Shown here: piece by piece, positions 3,575 through 25,673 of the stretch
How positions within the stretch are numbered: position 1 is the first letter of the stretch
How the letters are laid out: every line of letters begins with the position of its first letter
Virus record (IMG/VR): IMGVR_UViG_3300032308_000340
Location: 1-25,673 of that record
Length of the DNA stretch: 25,673 nucleotides
Strand: one strand, 5' to 3'
From: a virus
Notes under the pieces: model-generated
What the model was told of the DNA's origin: nothing
Database searches by the model: none
The model's input: the letters and a program-made list of their open reading frames with translations, nothing else
Made by a program: the position numbers and the translations under genes

Positions 3575-4279
3575 ATGACTGCCATTGTAGGTATTCAGGG
3601 AAAAGGCTGGGCGGTAATAGCAGCAGATTCCATGACTACCTATGATGACAAACCTTATTATGCCAAGGGTATGGATAAGGCAGTGCGTAAAGGTGATTAT
3701 GTGTTTGCCTTTGCTGGAGATGCCATTGCTGGCAACATAGCAGAGTTTCTATGGACTCCACCTAAACTTATTAAGACAATGCCACTTGATGCTTTTATGC
3801 AAGTAAAGGTGCTTCCATCTTTACGAGAAGCAATGAAAGAACATGGCTATGAGCCAGATGCAATCAAAGACCCAAACGCTGGTTTTGATGCACTTATGTG
3901 TTTAAACGGTGTTATTTATGAAATTGACGAGGAGTACATGTGGTCACGAGATGACCGTGGACTCTACGCAGTAGGCAGTGGTGGGCAGTTAGCACTAGGT
4001 GCATTAGCCACTGGCTTTAGTAAGAACTCGATGAAGGCAGCAGAGTTTGCTGCTCGTAGAGCAATCAAGATTTCCGCTGACTACTGCATAGGTGTTGGTG
4101 GAGATGTCAAAGTAATCACTCAAAAGGGGAACAACATGCCAGCAATGAAGAAGAAGGCGCTATCGCCAGCAATGAAGAAGAAGGCTTATGCAATGGCTGA
4201 AAAAGTAGAGTCCAAGCCACAGAAGGCTAAGGAACTTAAGAAGGGCGTTGCAATGCTTAAGAAGGCTGTGAAGAAGTAA
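3575..4279 (+). CDS. Proteasome-beta/HslV-like Ntn hydrolase with lysine-rich tail
   Basis: A 234-residue protein. Residues 1-182 resemble 20S proteasome beta subunits and HslV. After Met removal the chain would start TAIVGIQGKGWAVIAADS, giving Thr1 as nucleophile, Asp17 in the family position and Lys34 in KGMDKAVR, close to the usual Lys33. FAFAGDAIAGN and AVGSGGQLALGAL match the conserved beta-strand and GSG segments. This predicts an N-terminal-threonine peptidase, possibly self-assembling. Residues 188-234 are a separate Lys/Ala-rich basic tail that may also be translated on its own. In a capsid module it could mature virion proteins, although host-directed proteolysis is also possible. 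The fold assignment is strong. The role is inference. Confidence 0.8.
   Translation: MTAIVGIQGKGWAVIAADSMTTYDDKPYYAKGMDKAVRKGDYVFAFAGDAIAGNIAEFLWTPPKLIKTMPLDAFMQVKVLPSLREAMKEHGYEPDAIKDPNAGFDALMCLNGVIYEIDEEYMWSRDDRGLYAVGSGGQLALGALATGFSKNSMKAAEFAARRAIKISADYCIGVGGDVKVITQKGNNMPAMKKKALSPAMKKKAYAMAEKVESKPQKAKELKKGVAMLKKAVKK
4136..4279 (+). CDS. Possible internally started Lys/Ala-rich 47-aa protein
   Basis: ATG 4136 lies in frame inside the Ntn hydrolase gene and is preceded at good spacing by AAAAGGGGA, a better ribosome site than most real genes here have. It would make a 47-residue highly basic protein (MPAMKKKALSPAMKKKAYAM start). Translation from here would give both a fusion and a free tail. 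The two MKKK-containing repeats resemble the other small basic genes downstream. It is not distinguishable from a simple C-terminal extension without expression data. Confidence 0.35.
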   Translation: MPAMKKKALSPAMKKKAYAMAEKVESKPQKAKELKKGVAMLKKAVKK

Positions 4280-5259: not shown

Positions 5260-6179
5260 GCACACTTGAACAACTTACTGACCGTGTAGATACACTTCTT
5301 CACGGCTACAGTTTAAACATGGAATCAACCACATGGTTGACTGGCGCAATAACAACTACCACTCAGACCACTATTTCTGTTTATGATTCTAATGTTGTAA
5401 GCCGTGGCTTCATCCAAATTGGCGATGAGATTATGTATGTTAATACTACAAATAACATTGACAATACCCTTACCCTTGCACCATGGGGTCGTGGGCAGCG
5501 TGGCACAATAGCAACAACGCATGACAACTCATCTAAGGTAATGGTATCCCCACTGTTTCCTCGTTTTGAAATCAAGCGTGCTATTAACGACACACTCAAT
5601 GCAATGTATCCAGATATATTTGCCATTGGTCAATACCAGTTCCCGTTTATTGCTGCTCGTACAACTTACGATGTTCCAGATGTAATTCAAAACATTTTGT
5701 CTGTGACTCACCATGTCATTGGTCCATCTCAAGAGTGGCTACCAGTGCGTGCATGGCAATTAGATAGAACAGCAAACCCAGCACAATATGGTACTAACGG
5801 TGCCTTTGGGCATACCCTTGGTATTTACTCATCAGTAGTTCCAGGGCGTATTGTCAATGTGGCTTACTCAAAGCGCCCAACACTTTTTGACATCACACAA
5901 TTACCATCAGTTACACAAGAATACTCAACGGTAACTGGTATGCCTGACTACTCAGAAGATGTAGTTATCTATGGCGCAGCCTTCCGTATGATTTCTTTCC
6001 TAGACCCTTCACGCCTTGGTGCGCTATCTGCAGAAGCAGATGTGCTCGATAACCAGCGTGGAGCACGAAGTGGTGAGAACGCAGCACGCTTCTTGTTCAA
6101 TGTTTACAACACTCGTCTTAAGGAAGTGGCGGAGAACCAGCGCCGTCAGTTCCCTATTCGTTCACACTATCAGAGATAA
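5256..6179 (+). CDS. Probable head-tail adaptor (connector) protein
   Basis: A 307-residue protein starting at GTG 5256, coupled to the previous gene by GTGA. Residues about 25-105 form a beta-rich module (GDEIMYVNTTNN then TLTLAPWGRGQRGTIATTHD). The part from about 110 on (FEIKRAINDTLNAMYPDIF, RTTYDVPDVIQNILSVTHH, PDYSEDVVIYGAAFRMI) resembles adaptor proteins that sit between portal and tail in short-tailed phages. It is followed directly by fibre genes, with no tape-measure or tail-tube genes of long-tailed type. The role is inferred from this pattern and position. Confidence 0.6.
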   Translation: MSTLEQLTDRVDTLLHGYSLNMESTTWLTGAITTTTQTTISVYDSNVVSRGFIQIGDEIMYVNTTNNIDNTLTLAPWGRGQRGTIATTHDNSSKVMVSPLFPRFEIKRAINDTLNAMYPDIFAIGQYQFPFIAARTTYDVPDVIQNILSVTHHVIGPSQEWLPVRAWQLDRTANPAQYGTNGAFGHTLGIYSSVVPGRIVNVAYSKRPTLFDITQLPSVTQEYSTVTGMPDYSEDVVIYGAAFRMISFLDPSRLGALSAEADVLDNQRGARSGENAARFLFNVYNTRLKEVAENQRRQFPIRSHYQR

Positions 6180-13716: not shown

Positions 13717-14064
13717 GCTTTCCCAATCTCTATTGTCTTGGGTCTTTAGTCGGTGGCAGTTGGCACATAGTGTCTGTAGATTTTCTATGTCATTGTTTTG
13801 ATGGTTGCCATCTATGTGGTCTATATCCAACTGGCTACGGTGTATGGCTACAAAGCCACAATCCTCACAGTAATCCTTTTTGTATTTAGATAACTTAACA
13901 CGATTAACATTGGACTTAGTTCGACAAGACCAGTAGCCTCGTTGCTTTAACTTAAGTCTTGTGGGTCCACACACTGCACAGATACCCCATCGTTTGGCTG
14001 GGTTCTTGAGCAGCAGGCGATGCTGCTTTGGTTTATCCGCCTGTCGAGTAGAAGCCAGAGGCAT
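13699..14064 (-). CDS. HNH endonuclease
   Basis: A 121-residue protein with the HNH core LDIDHIDGNHQNNDIENLQT (from residue 79) followed by LCANCHRLK, and zinc-binding pairs CEDC (66-69) and CANC (100-103); an earlier CAVC lies at 29-32. This is the beta-beta-alpha-metal nuclease fold. Free-standing HNH genes in phages act as homing endonucleases or in genome packaging. Here it sits alone at the boundary of late and early modules on the opposite strand, which favours a mobile or homing type. It overlaps the FmdB-like gene by 32 bases, and its end runs into the late terminator. Confidence 0.85.
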   Translation of the reverse strand: MPLASTRQADKPKQHRLLLKNPAKRWGICAVCGPTRLKLKQRGYWSCRTKSNVNRVKLSKYKKDYCEDCGFVAIHRSQLDIDHIDGNHQNNDIENLQTLCANCHRLKTQDNRDWESKKAPR

Positions 14065-17070: not shown

Positions 17071-17323
17071 AGAACTGCCTCAAGTAATTGAGCAGATGGA
17101 GGAAGTAGCCAAGAAGGTTTACGACCCCCATCAGATATGGCTAGAAGCCATGCAGTTTGCAGACTATGTAACGCAACTATCTACCCATCTTAAAGATGAC
17201 CACGGTAGAGATTGCATACTAGACATAGCAGAGCAGTTAACTAACATGTCCAACTCGTTTAAACAAATGGGAGAGAACGCACTACGGGTTCTTGATGAAG
17301 CAGAAGGGGAGCACAATGGCTAA
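17021..17323 (+). CDS. Helical hypothetical protein
   Basis: A 100-residue all-helical acidic protein. I chose ATG 17021 because AGGGGGA lies about 10 bases upstream; ATG 17012 is also possible, and earlier starts lie inside the preceding gene. It contains ALLEELPQVIEQMEEVAKKV and LKDDHGRDCILDIAEQLTNM. A GTTTAAAC lies at 17257. It overlaps the next gene by 8 bases. No family recognised. Confidence 0.65.
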   Translation: MVNKMKLPAEMKEALLEELPQVIEQMEEVAKKVYDPHQIWLEAMQFADYVTQLSTHLKDDHGRDCILDIAEQLTNMSNSFKQMGENALRVLDEAEGEHNG

Positions 17324-18047
17324 CAGTAATCAAGAAACATTATCTCTTGGTTGGTGCGACAACGGTATGGTGGATGGGAAGTTTGCCGAAGGTATTATGT
17401 ACACCACCGTGACCGCACCATCACACAAGATGGCAATTAACAACGCTATTCGTGTTCAAGGTAATCAGATTGGCAGACAACGCCAAGCGCTGATGGACAT
17501 GTGGTATGACAAAGTAAAGACAGACTGGTTGTTATGGGTTGACTCTGACATTGTGCTTACCGCTGATGTGCTTGGCATGTTATGGAAGATAGCCGATAAG
17601 AATACTAAGCCAGTTGTATGTGGCACTTACTTTATCTCCAAGCAAATGGAGTCATCGTTAATGCAACCTATGCCTGCTTTATTTCATGAAGTTAGTGAGT
17701 ATGAGATTAAATACCTACACCCACTACCTAAGGATGAAGTAGTAAAGGTTGACTGTGCTGGCTTAGGTCTTACCCTGATGCATCGCAGTGTTGTTCCTAA
17801 GTTGCGTGCCATCTCACCTGACTACTCAGTGTTTGCTGAGAAGGAAGGGCTAGGAGATAAGTATGTTGGCGAGGACATTGTGTTCTTCCGTAACCTAAAG
17901 AAGGCTGGCGTTGATGTGTATGCACACACTGGTGCAGTTGTTAAACACATGAAGCGGTTTGCCTATGACGAGAACTACTATGCGTTGTATTGGCAGGCTG
18001 CAGCAGCAGCAGAAAGGCAGACAAATGGCGACACAACAAGCGAGTAA
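17316..18047 (+). CDS. GT-A glycosyltransferase (family-2-like)
   Basis: A 243-residue protein; start at ATG 17316, chosen because GGGGAGC is just upstream. APSHKMAINNAIRVQG, then WLLWVDSDIVLTADVLGML with the DSD metal motif (76-78), VVCGTYF and DCAGLGLTLMHRSVV are the landmarks of a nucleotide-sugar GT-A fold. The end DKYVGEDIVFFRNLKKAGVD and HTGAVVKHMKRF fits as well. Targets could be phage DNA bases, virion protein or host wall sugars. None can be chosen from sequence. It sits in a DNA-metabolism operon, which slightly favours DNA. Overlaps the resolvase gene by 23 bases. Confidence 0.75.
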   Translation: MANSNQETLSLGWCDNGMVDGKFAEGIMYTTVTAPSHKMAINNAIRVQGNQIGRQRQALMDMWYDKVKTDWLLWVDSDIVLTADVLGMLWKIADKNTKPVVCGTYFISKQMESSLMQPMPALFHEVSEYEIKYLHPLPKDEVVKVDCAGLGLTLMHRSVVPKLRAISPDYSVFAEKEGLGDKYVGEDIVFFRNLKKAGVDVYAHTGAVVKHMKRFAYDENYYALYWQAAAAAERQTNGDTTSE

Positions 18048-20249: not shown

Positions 20250-20403
20250 ACCTAAGTACCAACGCATGAAACCATGGAACTGGATAGGACTGCCGTTGTA
20301 TTACATTGGCATCTGTTTAAACGACATAGGGTATTATACTTACCTGGCTGGAGATAAAATAATTTGGTTTAAACGCAAACAGATTGGATACATTGACAAA
20401 TGA
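20242..20403 (+). CDS. Small basic/aromatic protein
   Basis: A 53-residue protein from ATG 20242 with CAGGAAA upstream. It is rich in Tyr/Trp/Ile and Lys (MIRPKYQRMKPWNWIGLPLY start; IIWFKRKQIGYIDK end), with one hydrophobic stretch that could touch a membrane. It overlaps the sigma-like gene by 8 bases and the kinase gene by 4 (ATGA). It carries two GTTTAAAC copies (20315, 20367) 52 bases apart. Function unknown. Confidence 0.6.
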   Translation: MIRPKYQRMKPWNWIGLPLYYIGICLNDIGYYTYLAGDKIIWFKRKQIGYIDK

Positions 20404-20933
20404 TTATTGGATTAAGTGGATACGCACAATCAGGTAAGGACACTGTTGCTGAACTGTTGTGTTTAAACTATGGGTTCAAGCGTATATCTTTTGCATTACC
20501 TATGCGTGATGCAATCTATACACTCAACCCTTATGTTGAAGGTGGCAATCGAGTTGTTGATTTAGTAGATGAGTATGGTTGGGATGTAGCCAAGGCTAAC
20601 CCTGAGGTGCGCCGTTTACTTCAAGTATTTGGTACTGAGGTAGGTCGCAATCTTTTTGGTGAAACCTTTTGGATTGACCAAGCGTTTAAACGAGCAGAAG
20701 AATACGAACGAGTAGTTTTTTCTGATGTGCGTTTTCCTAATGAAGCACATGCTATTCAAGCCAAAGGTGGTGATGTGTGGCGTATCAATAGACACAATCA
20801 CGCACCAGTTAACGCACACAAGAGCGAGCATGCAATGGATATGTTTATGTTTAAACATGTTATCTATAACGATGGCACGCTTAATGATTTATCTGATGAA
20901 GTGTTCATGCTTGCTAAACAACTAGGTTTGTAA
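20400..20933 (+). CDS. Deoxynucleoside monophosphate kinase (dNMP kinase-like)
   Basis: A 177-residue protein. The P-loop GLSGYAQSGKDTVAELL at 4-20, an FKRISFALPMRDAIY segment, and VVFSDVRFPNEAHAIQ match phage dNMP kinases (T4 gp1-like). It would phosphorylate dNMPs, including modified ones, for phage DNA synthesis. It is the last gene of the operon and is followed within 10 bases by an intrinsic terminator. Three GTTTAAAC copies lie in it (20461, 20684, 20849). Related nucleoside kinases are the alternative. Confidence 0.8.
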   Translation: MIIGLSGYAQSGKDTVAELLCLNYGFKRISFALPMRDAIYTLNPYVEGGNRVVDLVDEYGWDVAKANPEVRRLLQVFGTEVGRNLFGETFWIDQAFKRAEEYERVVFSDVRFPNEAHAIQAKGGDVWRINRHNHAPVNAHKSEHAMDMFMFKHVIYNDGTLNDLSDEVFMLAKQLGL

Positions 20934-23164: not shown

Positions 23165-23187
23165 GAAAACCCCCGCCGAAGCGGGGG
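23162..23187 (-). terminator. Minus-strand intrinsic terminator
   Basis: A 7-bp all-GC stem (23170-23176 with 23181-23187) around a tetraloop, followed on the minus strand by TTTTCTTTT. It ends the operon that contains the glutamine amidotransferase and the amidoligase, about 40 bases past the amidotransferase stop. It separates that operon from the WhiB operon's own promoter. Confidence 0.85.
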
Positions 23188-23225
23188 CTATCTTTATCGG
23201 AGGATGCTGGGGCTATCTCCGAAAC

Positions 23226-24029
23226 TTAGAAGGCTAGTTCATCTTGGTCAGCCCAATACTTGTCGAGTTCTGCATCGGTTAATCTACCGAACCCTCGCCA
23301 GTTGTTTGTATAGACCTGTCTAAACGGCTCGAAGTTCTGATGCTCCACAATCTTGCCATCTTTGACCTTGAAGTATTCACCCTCGTTGGCTGCGTATGAC
23401 CAAGCAAGCACCGAGTCAAGCATTACGGATGCGTTTTCGATAGTCTCCTCAGTTGAGCCATAGACCAGCGAACCTGATGCGGTTTGCCCAATCCATAGGG
23501 GCGATGAGTTGACACGAGCAAGGTGCAATGTGTTGCCCTTACCCTGTTCAATCCAAGCCAGTGCAGCGGTGCCTTGTACCTGTGAGAGTAACTCGGTGAT
23601 AGGTGCAGAAGTAAATGCGATTAGTGCAGCGACTGCCTCGCTATCTACCTGACCATGGCGCTTGACCTTGAGTTGTTTAAACAGTTGGTCATCGTTGCTG
23701 ATGTGTCCGTTGTGAGTGAGTACGATTTTGCCACGAGGAATTGGGTGGTTGTTATCGTTTACCTTTGGCGAACCCTGAGTTGCCCAACGAGTGTGCAAGA
23801 TAGCGGTGGTTGCGTTTAAACAGAGTCGCTTGCCTGCATCTGTTGTGATGAACTTGGTTGCAGCAACGGGTGCCTTGGTGATTACACGATTGCCTGACTT
23901 GGGGTTAATCCAAGCAGCGCCAGTGGCATGGTAGCCACGATGTTCGATGTCGAGCAGCATCTGTGCTGCAAGGTCGGTCTGATTCTGATTGTGCTTTGGG
24001 TTAAGGCAGAAGCCTGCGATTCCACACAT
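23226..24029 (-). CDS. Class-II glutamine amidotransferase (Ntn glutaminase)
   Basis: A 267-residue protein beginning MCGIAGF, so Cys2 becomes the N-terminal nucleophile after Met removal. HRGYHATGA (30-38), HTRWATQGSP (79-88), NNHPI (93-97), THNGHISN (105-112) and DSEAV (129-133) are the Gln-binding and oxyanion landmarks of GlmS/PurF-type glutaminase domains. The chain ends soon after this domain, so no synthase half is attached. It would release ammonia from glutamine or transfer an amide for a partner enzyme. The amidoligase in the same operon is the obvious candidate. Contains GTTTAAAC at 23675 and 23814. Confidence 0.9.
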   Translation of the reverse strand: MCGIAGFCLNPKHNQNQTDLAAQMLLDIEHRGYHATGAAWINPKSGNRVITKAPVAATKFITTDAGKRLCLNATTAILHTRWATQGSPKVNDNNHPIPRGKIVLTHNGHISNDDQLFKQLKVKRHGQVDSEAVAALIAFTSAPITELLSQVQGTAALAWIEQGKGNTLHLARVNSSPLWIGQTASGSLVYGSTEETIENASVMLDSVLAWSYAANEGEYFKVKDGKIVEHQNFEPFRQVYTNNWRGFGRLTDAELDKYWADQDELAF

Positions 24030-24055
24030 AATTTATTTCTCCAGTCTGCTAGTTG

Positions 24056-24220
24056 TTAGTGGTTAAGTGTATCACATGGGCTGATAACTTTTACCAGCCT
24101 GTTTAAACGGTCGGCTGCCAATAGGTAATCGGCATCCTCTTTGGTGTAAACACTATTGAACTTGCGACCCGATGGGTCGGTGCCTTCAATAATGTATAAC
24201 GATTCGTTATCTTTCATCAT
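24056..24220 (-). CDS. Small acidic protein
   Basis: A 54-residue protein. I chose ATG 24220 (MMKDNESLYIIEGTDPSGRK), preceded by GGTGACC and overlapping the end of the membrane-peptide gene by 14 bases; upstream starts would run through that gene. It has a beta hairpin-like start and a helix (YTKEDADYLLAADRLNRLVK). It lies between the membrane peptide and the amidotransferase. Function unknown. Confidence 0.6.
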   Translation of the reverse strand: MMKDNESLYIIEGTDPSGRKFNSVYTKEDADYLLAADRLNRLVKVISPCDTLNH

Positions 24221-24305
24221 GGTCACCAAGCCAATACCATGCCCATGTTCCAGCGATGATTGCAACGATGAGTAATGCACGACCATCGAAGATTGAAAGG
24301 TCCAT
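24207..24305 (-). CDS. 32-aa single-pass membrane peptide
   Basis: A 32-residue frame from ATG 24305: a short polar start, a strong membrane helix (ALLIVAIIAGTWAWYWLG) and an acidic-basic end DHDER. The ATG follows directly after GTTTAAAC, whose TAA is the stop of the gene before. Being compact, hydrophobic and linked to both neighbours, it is likely translated. It could anchor or regulate the neighbouring enzymes at the membrane. Confidence 0.6.
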   Translation of the reverse strand: MDLSIFDGRALLIVAIIAGTWAWYWLGDHDER

Positions 24306-24307
24306 GT

Positions 24308-24463
24308 TTAAACACCAGCCTTAATATCTTGGATGTGTGCTCTGAACTTTAAATCTCCAACATTTAAGTCAGCGATTGTTTGATTGATTTCTTTCATGCT
24401 TGATGCAGTTAGGTTGACACCAATGCAGCGACCACCTTGAAAGATTGCGTATGTGATTTTCAT
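24308..24463 (-). CDS. 51-aa protein ending in GTTTAAAC
   Basis: A 51-residue protein from ATG 24463, starting MKITYAIFQGGRCIGVNLTA and continuing with a helix (SSMKEINQTIADLNVGDLKF). Upstream are GGACTGGA, two bases before the ATG, and a GTTTAAAC (24479-24486). Its last codon and stop (GTT TAA) are the first six bases of GTTTAAAC at 24306-24313, and the next gene starts right after that motif. No family recognised. Confidence 0.65.
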   Translation of the reverse strand: MKITYAIFQGGRCIGVNLTASSMKEINQTIADLNVGDLKFRAHIQDIKAGV

Positions 24464-24488
24464 TTTCCAGTCCGTTCTGTTTAAACAG

Positions 24489-24559
24489 TACGAGTATTTC
24501 TCGTATCTGCTTGTGCCTGCCGAGGGTAACGCTCCCTCGCTTGCCCACTTGGGGCAGGC
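24489..24559 (-). other. Structured intergenic segment in the amidoligase operon
   Basis: Three stems lie in the 104-base gap between the amidoligase and the 51-aa gene. TACGAG/CTCGTA (24489-24494, 24500-24505) has a 5-base loop. GCCTGCC/GGCAGGC (24515-24521, 24553-24559) encloses an inner GAGGG/CCCTC (24522-24526, 24534-24538). No T-run follows, so it looks like an mRNA processing or attenuating structure rather than a terminator. A GTTTAAAC (24479) adjoins it. Confidence 0.5.
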
Positions 24560-24567
24560 TGCGCTGA

Positions 24568-25269
24568 TTAGGCGCTGAGTTCGATTGCTCGCTGCTTGAG
24601 ATAGATTGCGGTGTCACCCTTGAGTGCATCGTGTTGAGTCAATGTGTCGAGCAGGGCGTTGACATCGTTTAAACGATTGTCGGTCAAGATTCCACCTGCG
24701 GTGCTGAATTGTGCGATTGCCTGCACAAACTCTGCCCATGCTTGGATTTTCTTGCCGTTGAGTGTGCCATGGTGTAGGCGAAACTCTACGGTGCCATGGC
24801 GTTGGTATGAGTCGAGATTGAGTGAGCGATAGCGACCCTGCCCAGCGTTATCAATGCGACCGTTGCGGATTGATTCTGTCCACTGGTCAATGATTGCCTC
24901 GCTGAGATTGTGTTGGCAGAAGTGATTGTTTAAACGAGACTTGGCAACGAGTGCACCGATTGCCTCATGTGCGGTGTACCAGTTGCGAACCAAGGCAGCG
25001 ATTCCATCCAAGCCATAATGGTCGGCACCAATGTGCACATGAAAACCAGTCTGCTTGTTAACGGTCGCGCCAGCCTTGAGCAGTGCTCGCGCTGCTGAGA
25101 TTGACTCGTTTAAACTGCCATCGTTGAGGATTGGTGAAACTGCCTCAGCATCAACGCCACGAGTTCCATCGGGCTTGCACTGCCAGTTTAAACCGACTGC
25201 ATCGAGGGCAGATTGTGCGGTGCGGATTGAGATGCTGCTAGTTTCGAGTTCGATTCCGTAAGTTTTCAC
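24568..25269 (-). CDS. Amidoligase_2-family COOH-NH2 ligase
   Basis: A 233-residue protein from GTG 25269 with GGAGG seven bases upstream. KTYGIELET (2-10), TGFHVHIGADH (74-84), RYRSLN (146-151) and GTVEFRLHHGTLNGKKI (159-175) are the diagnostic segments of the Amidoligase_2 group, which has a glutamine-synthetase-like fold and is predicted to make amide bonds using ATP. Earlier comparative work on amidoligases linked such enzymes with class-II amidotransferases. Both occur in this operon. The substrate (wall peptide, small molecule or protein) is unknown. Four GTTTAAAC copies lie within it. Confidence 0.8.
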   Translation of the reverse strand: MKTYGIELETSSISIRTAQSALDAVGLNWQCKPDGTRGVDAEAVSPILNDGSLNESISAARALLKAGATVNKQTGFHVHIGADHYGLDGIAALVRNWYTAHEAIGALVAKSRLNNHFCQHNLSEAIIDQWTESIRNGRIDNAGQGRYRSLNLDSYQRHGTVEFRLHHGTLNGKKIQAWAEFVQAIAQFSTAGGILTDNRLNDVNALLDTLTQHDALKGDTAIYLKQRAIELSA

Positions 25270-25271
25270 GA

Positions 25272-25673
25272 TTAAGCCTCCACTAGTGAGTTGGTGCAAA
25301 CTGGGCAGATTGGAGCGCCGAGATTCACCAAGGTAGTGCGAGAAACTCGTGCAATGTAATCATCGTTTAAACAAGCAACCTTGATGAGGCGAGTTGTCTG
25401 CTTAGGTGCTGCTGCAATTTCAAGGGCAGCATGAGGATACGCGCCGATAGTTGCAAGGATTTCCACTGCCCATGATGGGAGGGTTTCGAGTGGCTTGGCA
25501 ACGCTTGGCGCTGCTGAACGCCAGTTTCCAATGTGAGCCAGTTTCAGCAGTGGCAGCACCAATTTTGCGACTGATTCAGTCGAGTCAATAATCGGGCTTA
25601 TGAAAATCTCAGCAGTGAAATCATCACTGGCTGATGGAGGCACAATGGCTGCATCGGCAGCCTTGCGACCAGT
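25272..25673 (-). CDS. Unknown protein with C-terminal CxxC, 5' part outside the window
   Basis: The frame is open to the window edge (134 codons including stop), and the in-frame sequence TGRKAADAAIVPPSASDDF reads as protein, so the GTG at 25643 is probably not the start. Helical sequence such as SWAVEILATIGAYPHAALEI leads to IARVSRTTLVNLGAPICPVC near the end. The final CPVC could bind metal. It is immediately upstream of the amidoligase (2 bases apart) and is therefore probably cotranscribed. Not recognised. One GTTTAAAC at 25365. Confidence 0.65.
   Translation of the reverse strand, partial: TGRKAADAAIVPPSASDDFTAEIFISPIIDSTESVAKLVLPLLKLAHIGNWRSAAPSVAKPLETLPSWAVEILATIGAYPHAALEIAAAPKQTTRLIKVACLNDDYIARVSRTTLVNLGAPICPVCTNSLVEA

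Follow-up and report, generated by a model that had tools for sequence, protein, structure and literature searches.

A reduced phage operon pairing a predicted amidoligase with a stand-alone class-II glutamine amidotransferase

At its right end, on the minus strand, the virus record analysed here carries an intact Amidoligase_2 protein, by its sequence a predicted ATP-dependent amide ligase, together with a stand-alone class-II glutamine amidotransferase (GATase). The record is 25,673 bases long and is covered in full by what we call the window. The two enzymes stay together throughout one phage lineage and probably function as a coupled pair. Their pairing has already been predicted in print; the reduced variant of the cassette described below, with its two conserved helpers, appears to be new.

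Results

The layout of the operon is given in Table 1. As the first-pass annotation had described, it is a minus-strand operon with three tiny genes between the enzymes, one of them encoding a membrane peptide. That annotation had also called the operon terminator-bounded, which holds for the 3' end, where a hairpin is present, but not for the 5' end, since the window contains no terminator there. It had further taken positions 23226-25269 to be the whole set. This span omits the set's first gene, because the gene that abuts the amidoligase, ending 2 bases before its start, is conserved with it, and the same set is found in all testable relatives. The GTG start of the amidoligase is itself preceded by a GGAGG-type ribosome site.

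Table 1. Positions of the operon features and of other genes in the window
Feature	Position	Strand	Remarks
SprT-like protein homologue without HExxH	25272..25673	-	phrog_6361; C-terminal part only, cut by window end
Amidoligase_2, GS-superfamily carboxylate-amine ligase	24568..25269	-	233 aa; GTG start; PF12224
SM1, small ORF	24308..24463	-	51 aa; kept in a minority of relatives
Single-pass membrane mini-protein MDLSIFDGRALLIVAIIAGTWAWYWLGDHDER	24207..24305	-	32 aa; DGR before membrane segment
SM2, small soluble ORF	24056..24220	-	~54 aa; conserved in many relatives
Stand-alone class-II glutamine amidotransferase (Ntn glutaminase domain)	23226..24029	-	267 aa; PF13522
Intrinsic-terminator-like hairpin, operon 3' end	23168..23189	-	9-pair stem (7 GC), then T-rich tail
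HslV/proteasome-subunit-like protein	3575-4279	+	PF00227 1e-5, phrog_1040 3e-23; among virion genes
GT-A-type glycosyltransferase	17292-18047	+	phrog_34859 9e-117; inside replication gene block
Deoxynucleoside monophosphate kinase	20400-20933	+	PF21448, phrog_139

In a Pfam profile search the amidoligase matches PF12224 with E=7e-24 and 85.4 bits, against a curated cut-off of 22. Its residues E7/E9 (ExE), H77/H79 (HxH) and E162/R164 (ExR), which from knowledge of the family we take to be the metal and nucleotide ligands of the GS superfamily, are invariant among 43 diverse homologues from the lineage. The same residues are kept in seven distant phage proteins, from Arthrobacter, Porphyromonas, Bacillus, Geobacillus and gut phages, that are 23-32% identical to the amidoligase. 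Searching the PDB by sequence gave no match, so a fold search was needed: the AlphaFold (AF2) model (pLDDT 93) has a GS-superfamily fold and matches YbdK with a Z score of 14 and glutamine synthetases with Z of about 13, over 200-215 residues. A dN/dS of about 0.2-0.3 indicates purifying selection. No relative was found in a profile search of bacterial genome contigs, and therefore no prophage or host could be named; a plasmid search returned only three distant matches, in unannotated Phocaeicola and Subdoligranulum records.

The GATase likewise lies well above its profile cut-off (PF13522; E=4e-20, 73 bits, cut-off 27; Pfam profile search). Across 36 homologues, residues C2, R81, N107-G108 and D129 do not vary, and the gene is under purifying selection (dN/dS 0.07-0.24). 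The nearest fold to its model is the glutaminase domain of GlmS (1xff, E=1.3e-17, TM 0.70-0.77). GlmS differs in carrying a fused synthase domain; the window's GATase is without one, which implies that its acceptor enzyme must be elsewhere. YbdK and the GlmS glutaminase domain are thus the closest solved folds to the two proteins, at about 13-20% and 25% identity, respectively. These profile matches, fold assignments and invariant residues bear out the earlier view that both enzymes are intact at motif level; the loss of catalytic residues on alignment, which that view had named as its refutation, did not occur.

Loci were gathered independently, once with each enzyme as query. A GATase lies within 2 kb downstream of every one of the 68 distinct amidoligases that have at least 2.5 kb of downstream sequence, and an amidoligase lies upstream of all 55 distinct GATases with enough upstream sequence. 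The neighbourhood survey proposed in the first-pass annotation therefore found complete co-occurrence and not the lack of it that had been named as contrary evidence. All surveyed loci come from a single phage lineage (genomes of about 40-42 kb) that is syntenic across the whole region, and part of this result could therefore be due to synteny alone. That the two genes are unrelated neighbours held together by synteny only is nevertheless quite improbable, since the distance between them ranges from 234 to 1307 bp and the intergenic content varies while the pair stays constant, and since unrelated phage groups have the same pair in other gene contexts. Among Arthrobacter phages, 14 records match the amidoligase and 14 the GATase, and the GATase is the next gene after the amidoligase in Kovu and Ottawa, the two that were inspected; the pair is also present in LUZ24-like phages and in RIO-1. 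The amidoligases of all five Porphyromonas, Bacillus, Geobacillus and gut-phage regions inspected, in contrast, have no class-II GATase within 5 kb. Four of these regions have an annotated gamma-glutamyl cyclotransferase, and the Porphyromonas region has neither. Amidoligase_2 proteins can therefore act without a GATase, and the pairing is frequent but not obligatory for the family. One record of the lineage, IMGVR_UViG_3300044731_000025 (42567 bases), carries the cassette at both ends (loci L105 and L107). The two copies are separated by about 39.7 kb, as would be expected if the genome were circularly permuted and roughly this long.

The gene upstream of the amidoligase matches phrog_6361, is 34% identical to gp49 of Arthrobacter phage Maureen, annotated as a 'SprT-like protease', and belongs to a family that is also homologous to a Microbacterium phage 'SprT-like protease'. 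It is present in all 59 testable loci, always directly upstream of the amidoligase. The HExxH motif is present in Maureen gp49 and absent from all 15 lineage members inspected, in which HELVH is replaced by hydrophobic residues of the LPLLK type. Relatives encode either a protein of 175-205 aa (a full-length copy is found, for example, at L013:1517-2047) or just the zinc-ribbon-like C-terminal part of 55-94 aa, the latter at about a dozen loci. The gene was also considered as the missing cyclotransferase, a possibility ruled out by its homology to SprT-like proteins.

A hydrophobic ORF with an ATG start and a single membrane pass occurs in 79 of 91 distinct intergenic segments, compared with 3% of shuffles and with 12 of 91 segments in an opposite-strand control; most of the remaining 12 segments encode the same kind of peptide slightly below threshold. 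The mini-protein is about 30 aa long and has DGR just before the membrane segment in 53 intergenic segments. NGS or DGS takes the place of DGR in some relatives, and others encode a distinct membrane peptide (MKLTNRGWF...YCWG..EC) that has a Cys pair. Because a membrane peptide is conserved between the two enzymes, an envelope substrate is favoured, and the mini-protein may be a concrete clue to it. In the part of the literature on published cassettes that was covered, no description of the SprT-like gene or the membrane mini-protein was found.

Published accounts describe amidoligase-GATase cassettes, annotated in LUZ24-like, RIO-1-like, OM43 and Arthrobacter phages, with a predicted role in host-wall remodelling (PMC10580990 citing Iyer 2009; PMC5498523). 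The 'peptidoglycan modification cassette' of phiEco32, LUZ24-like and RIO-1-like phages goes back to Iyer et al. 2009 and Hardies et al. 2013 (both as quoted by PMC10580990 and PMC5498523); a further source is the account of UFV-P2 (PMC3890496). The window set resembles the LUZ24/RIO-1 type in having Amidoligase_2 and a class-II GATase together among early or replication-side genes. That type, however, has extra genes, for a gamma-glutamyl cyclotransferase, a RimK-type ATP-grasp protein and a COOH-NH2 ligase, and its GATase is longer (about 420-510 aa versus 267 aa), whereas the window set consists of the two enzymes plus a motif-less SprT-like gene and the DGR membrane mini-protein. In 21 related records, of which 14 measure 39-43 kb, the profile of gamma-glutamyl cyclotransferase (PF06094) gave no match, compared with matches in 9 of 14 control genomes; that of RimK-type ATP-grasp (PF08443) matched none of 10 near-complete relatives. 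The profile of a second COOH-NH2 ligase (PF14395) gave no match in 14 relatives, nor in any control genome. With the cyclotransferase and the RimK-type ATP-grasp absent, the window's set is a reduced variant that falls short of the full LUZ24/RIO-1 cassette.

The cassette of Arthrobacter phages (Kovu, Salgado, Laroye and others), in which the amidoligase is directly followed by the GATase, encodes proteins 27-40% identical to those of the window. It differs in three ways: the amidoligase is preceded by a gamma-glutamyl cyclotransferase, annotated as such in Kovu; the gap between the two enzyme genes is about 100 bp, too short to hold the membrane mini-protein or SM2; and no SprT-like gene adjoins the pair. 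With MurT/GatD there is a possible working likeness, namely glutamine-dependent amidation by a ligase with a separate amidotransferase. The MurT/GatD enzymes are, however, a Mur ligase and a class I amidotransferase, not homologous to the window pair, whose Pfam matches are to PF12224 and class-II GATase families.

The genome has a further unusual feature in the palindrome GTTTAAAC, which occurs 38 times where 0.5 occurrences are expected (about 70-fold), mostly inside genes, with 32 of the 38 sites to the right of base 14,000. Counting variant forms, it is found at one conserved position in 91 of 93 GATase genes and at two conserved positions in the amidoligase (74/93 and 71/93). Leucine is encoded by TTA in 41% of cases before asparagine and in 10% elsewhere, which suggests selection on the DNA as well as on the protein; L53 and N54 of the amidoligase may therefore be conserved for the sake of the DNA site. 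In a sister clade (L038-L041, L050-L052) GTTTAAAC is absent and GTTTAGAC is found instead, at about 22 copies per 12.7 kb, in either orientation and partly at positions orthologous to those of GTTTAAAC. Locus L095 (7919 bases) has both forms, GTTTAGAC mainly on the left and GTTTAAAC only to the right of base 5800, and is possibly a recombinant between the clades. Overall, these data suggest that GTTTAAAC and GTTTAGAC are a putative stoperator-like protein-binding site spread over the early region and co-evolving with its protein. A literature search for GTTTAAAC as a phage repeat gave nothing relevant, and the GTTTAAAC/GTTTAGAC system is probably a more novel feature of this genome than the enzyme pair.

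Finally, the capsid relatives are Streptomyces phages and the window encodes a WhiB protein. The host is therefore probably actinobacterial, an assignment that goes to no finer level.

Discussion

The first-pass annotation had proposed that the two enzymes form a joint amide-forming pathway. As far as coupling is concerned, this is well supported: the residues are intact, the two genes co-occur without exception in the lineage, and unrelated phages have the same pair. The chemistry that we infer from the active sites and folds would run as follows. The N-terminal cysteine of the GATase would hydrolyse host glutamine to release ammonia; the amidoligase would use ATP to convert a carboxylate into an activated acyl phosphate, to which it would join the ammonia, or another amine, to give an amide. 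The membrane mini-protein and the SprT-like, zinc-ribbon protein may serve as accessory or scaffold components, anchoring the enzymes to the membrane or to their substrate. The likeliest target would be a component of the host envelope, for instance a carboxyl group in the stem peptide of a peptidoglycan precursor, and an altered wall might help the infecting phage by warding off superinfecting phages or preventing untimely lysis.

Glutamine-dependent amidation of a carboxylate by both enzymes, with the wall as target, is a reading that we put forward tentatively, at somewhat less than even chances. To our knowledge, the action of the known cassettes on peptidoglycan is itself only a prediction. 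Counting against wall amidation are the occurrence of Amidoligase_2 without a GATase in other phages and the lack, in this lineage, of the gamma-glutamyl cyclotransferase and of a RimK-like protein. Stem peptides are, moreover, already amidated through MurT/GatD or LtsA in many Gram-positive and actinobacterial hosts, so a phage copy would be redundant. The published predictions are of peptidoglycan modification and the exclusion of competing phages (PMC5498523; PMC10580990 citing Iyer 2009).

Three other reactions have to be weighed against this one. The amidoligase might join an amino acid or amine, and not ammonia, to a glutamyl carboxylate, with the class-II enzyme as a separate hydrolase or glutamine consumer and a small gamma-glutamyl metabolite or tag as product. 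The nearest structural relatives do include YbdK, a gamma-glutamyl-cysteine-type ligase, and other phages pair their amidoligase with a gamma-glutamyl cyclotransferase; one published account also names the enzyme a gamma-glutamyl amidoligase and assigns the GATase to degradation (PMC5498523). Yet in the present lineage the cyclotransferase is missing from every record searched and the GATase is never lost, which makes this reaction somewhat unlikely here. A role in protein modification, in which the pair would amidate side-chain carboxylates of a phage or host protein, is distinctly unlikely. Candidate substrates would be a virion protein, the DGR membrane mini-protein or a Pup-type tag, in the last case reversing a Dop-like deamidation. 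The Pup deamidase Dop is indeed among the GS-fold relatives, a small conserved protein with a fixed Asp (in DGR) lies between the enzymes, and the capsid relatives make likely an actinobacterial host, possibly with pupylation; but several other GS-fold proteins match just as distantly as Dop, and the DGR sequence is replaced by NGS or DGS, or the whole peptide by a different one, in some relatives. Phage base-modification clusters can use amide-forming enzymes, and the window has a deoxynucleoside monophosphate kinase and a GT-A-type glycosyltransferase near its replication genes, as would suit the addition of an amide or amine to a hypermodified base. This, however, is highly improbable, as no thymidylate-synthase-like, TET, QueC-type or alpha-glutamyl/putrescinyl enzyme was found among the window proteins tested, and the cassette operon is separate from the kinase and the glycosyltransferase.

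The earlier statement that no characterised phage pathway has this make-up holds in that we found no biochemical characterisation; the cassette itself, on the other hand, has been predicted or annotated in several phage groups since 2009. In the literature since that year we found no identification of a substrate for the predicted phage amidoligase-GATase pathway. The minimal version described here, with two enzymes that always occur together, would be easier to reconstitute than cassettes of seven genes. The more specific idea of a membrane-tethered phage amidation complex, in which the DGR mini-protein recruits the ligase-GATase pair, or is its substrate, together with a repurposed SprT-like zinc-ribbon protein, is speculative and, in our view, rather unlikely. 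If true, it would mean that a phage can rewrite the carboxylates of the envelope or of membrane proteins during infection by a route not described before.
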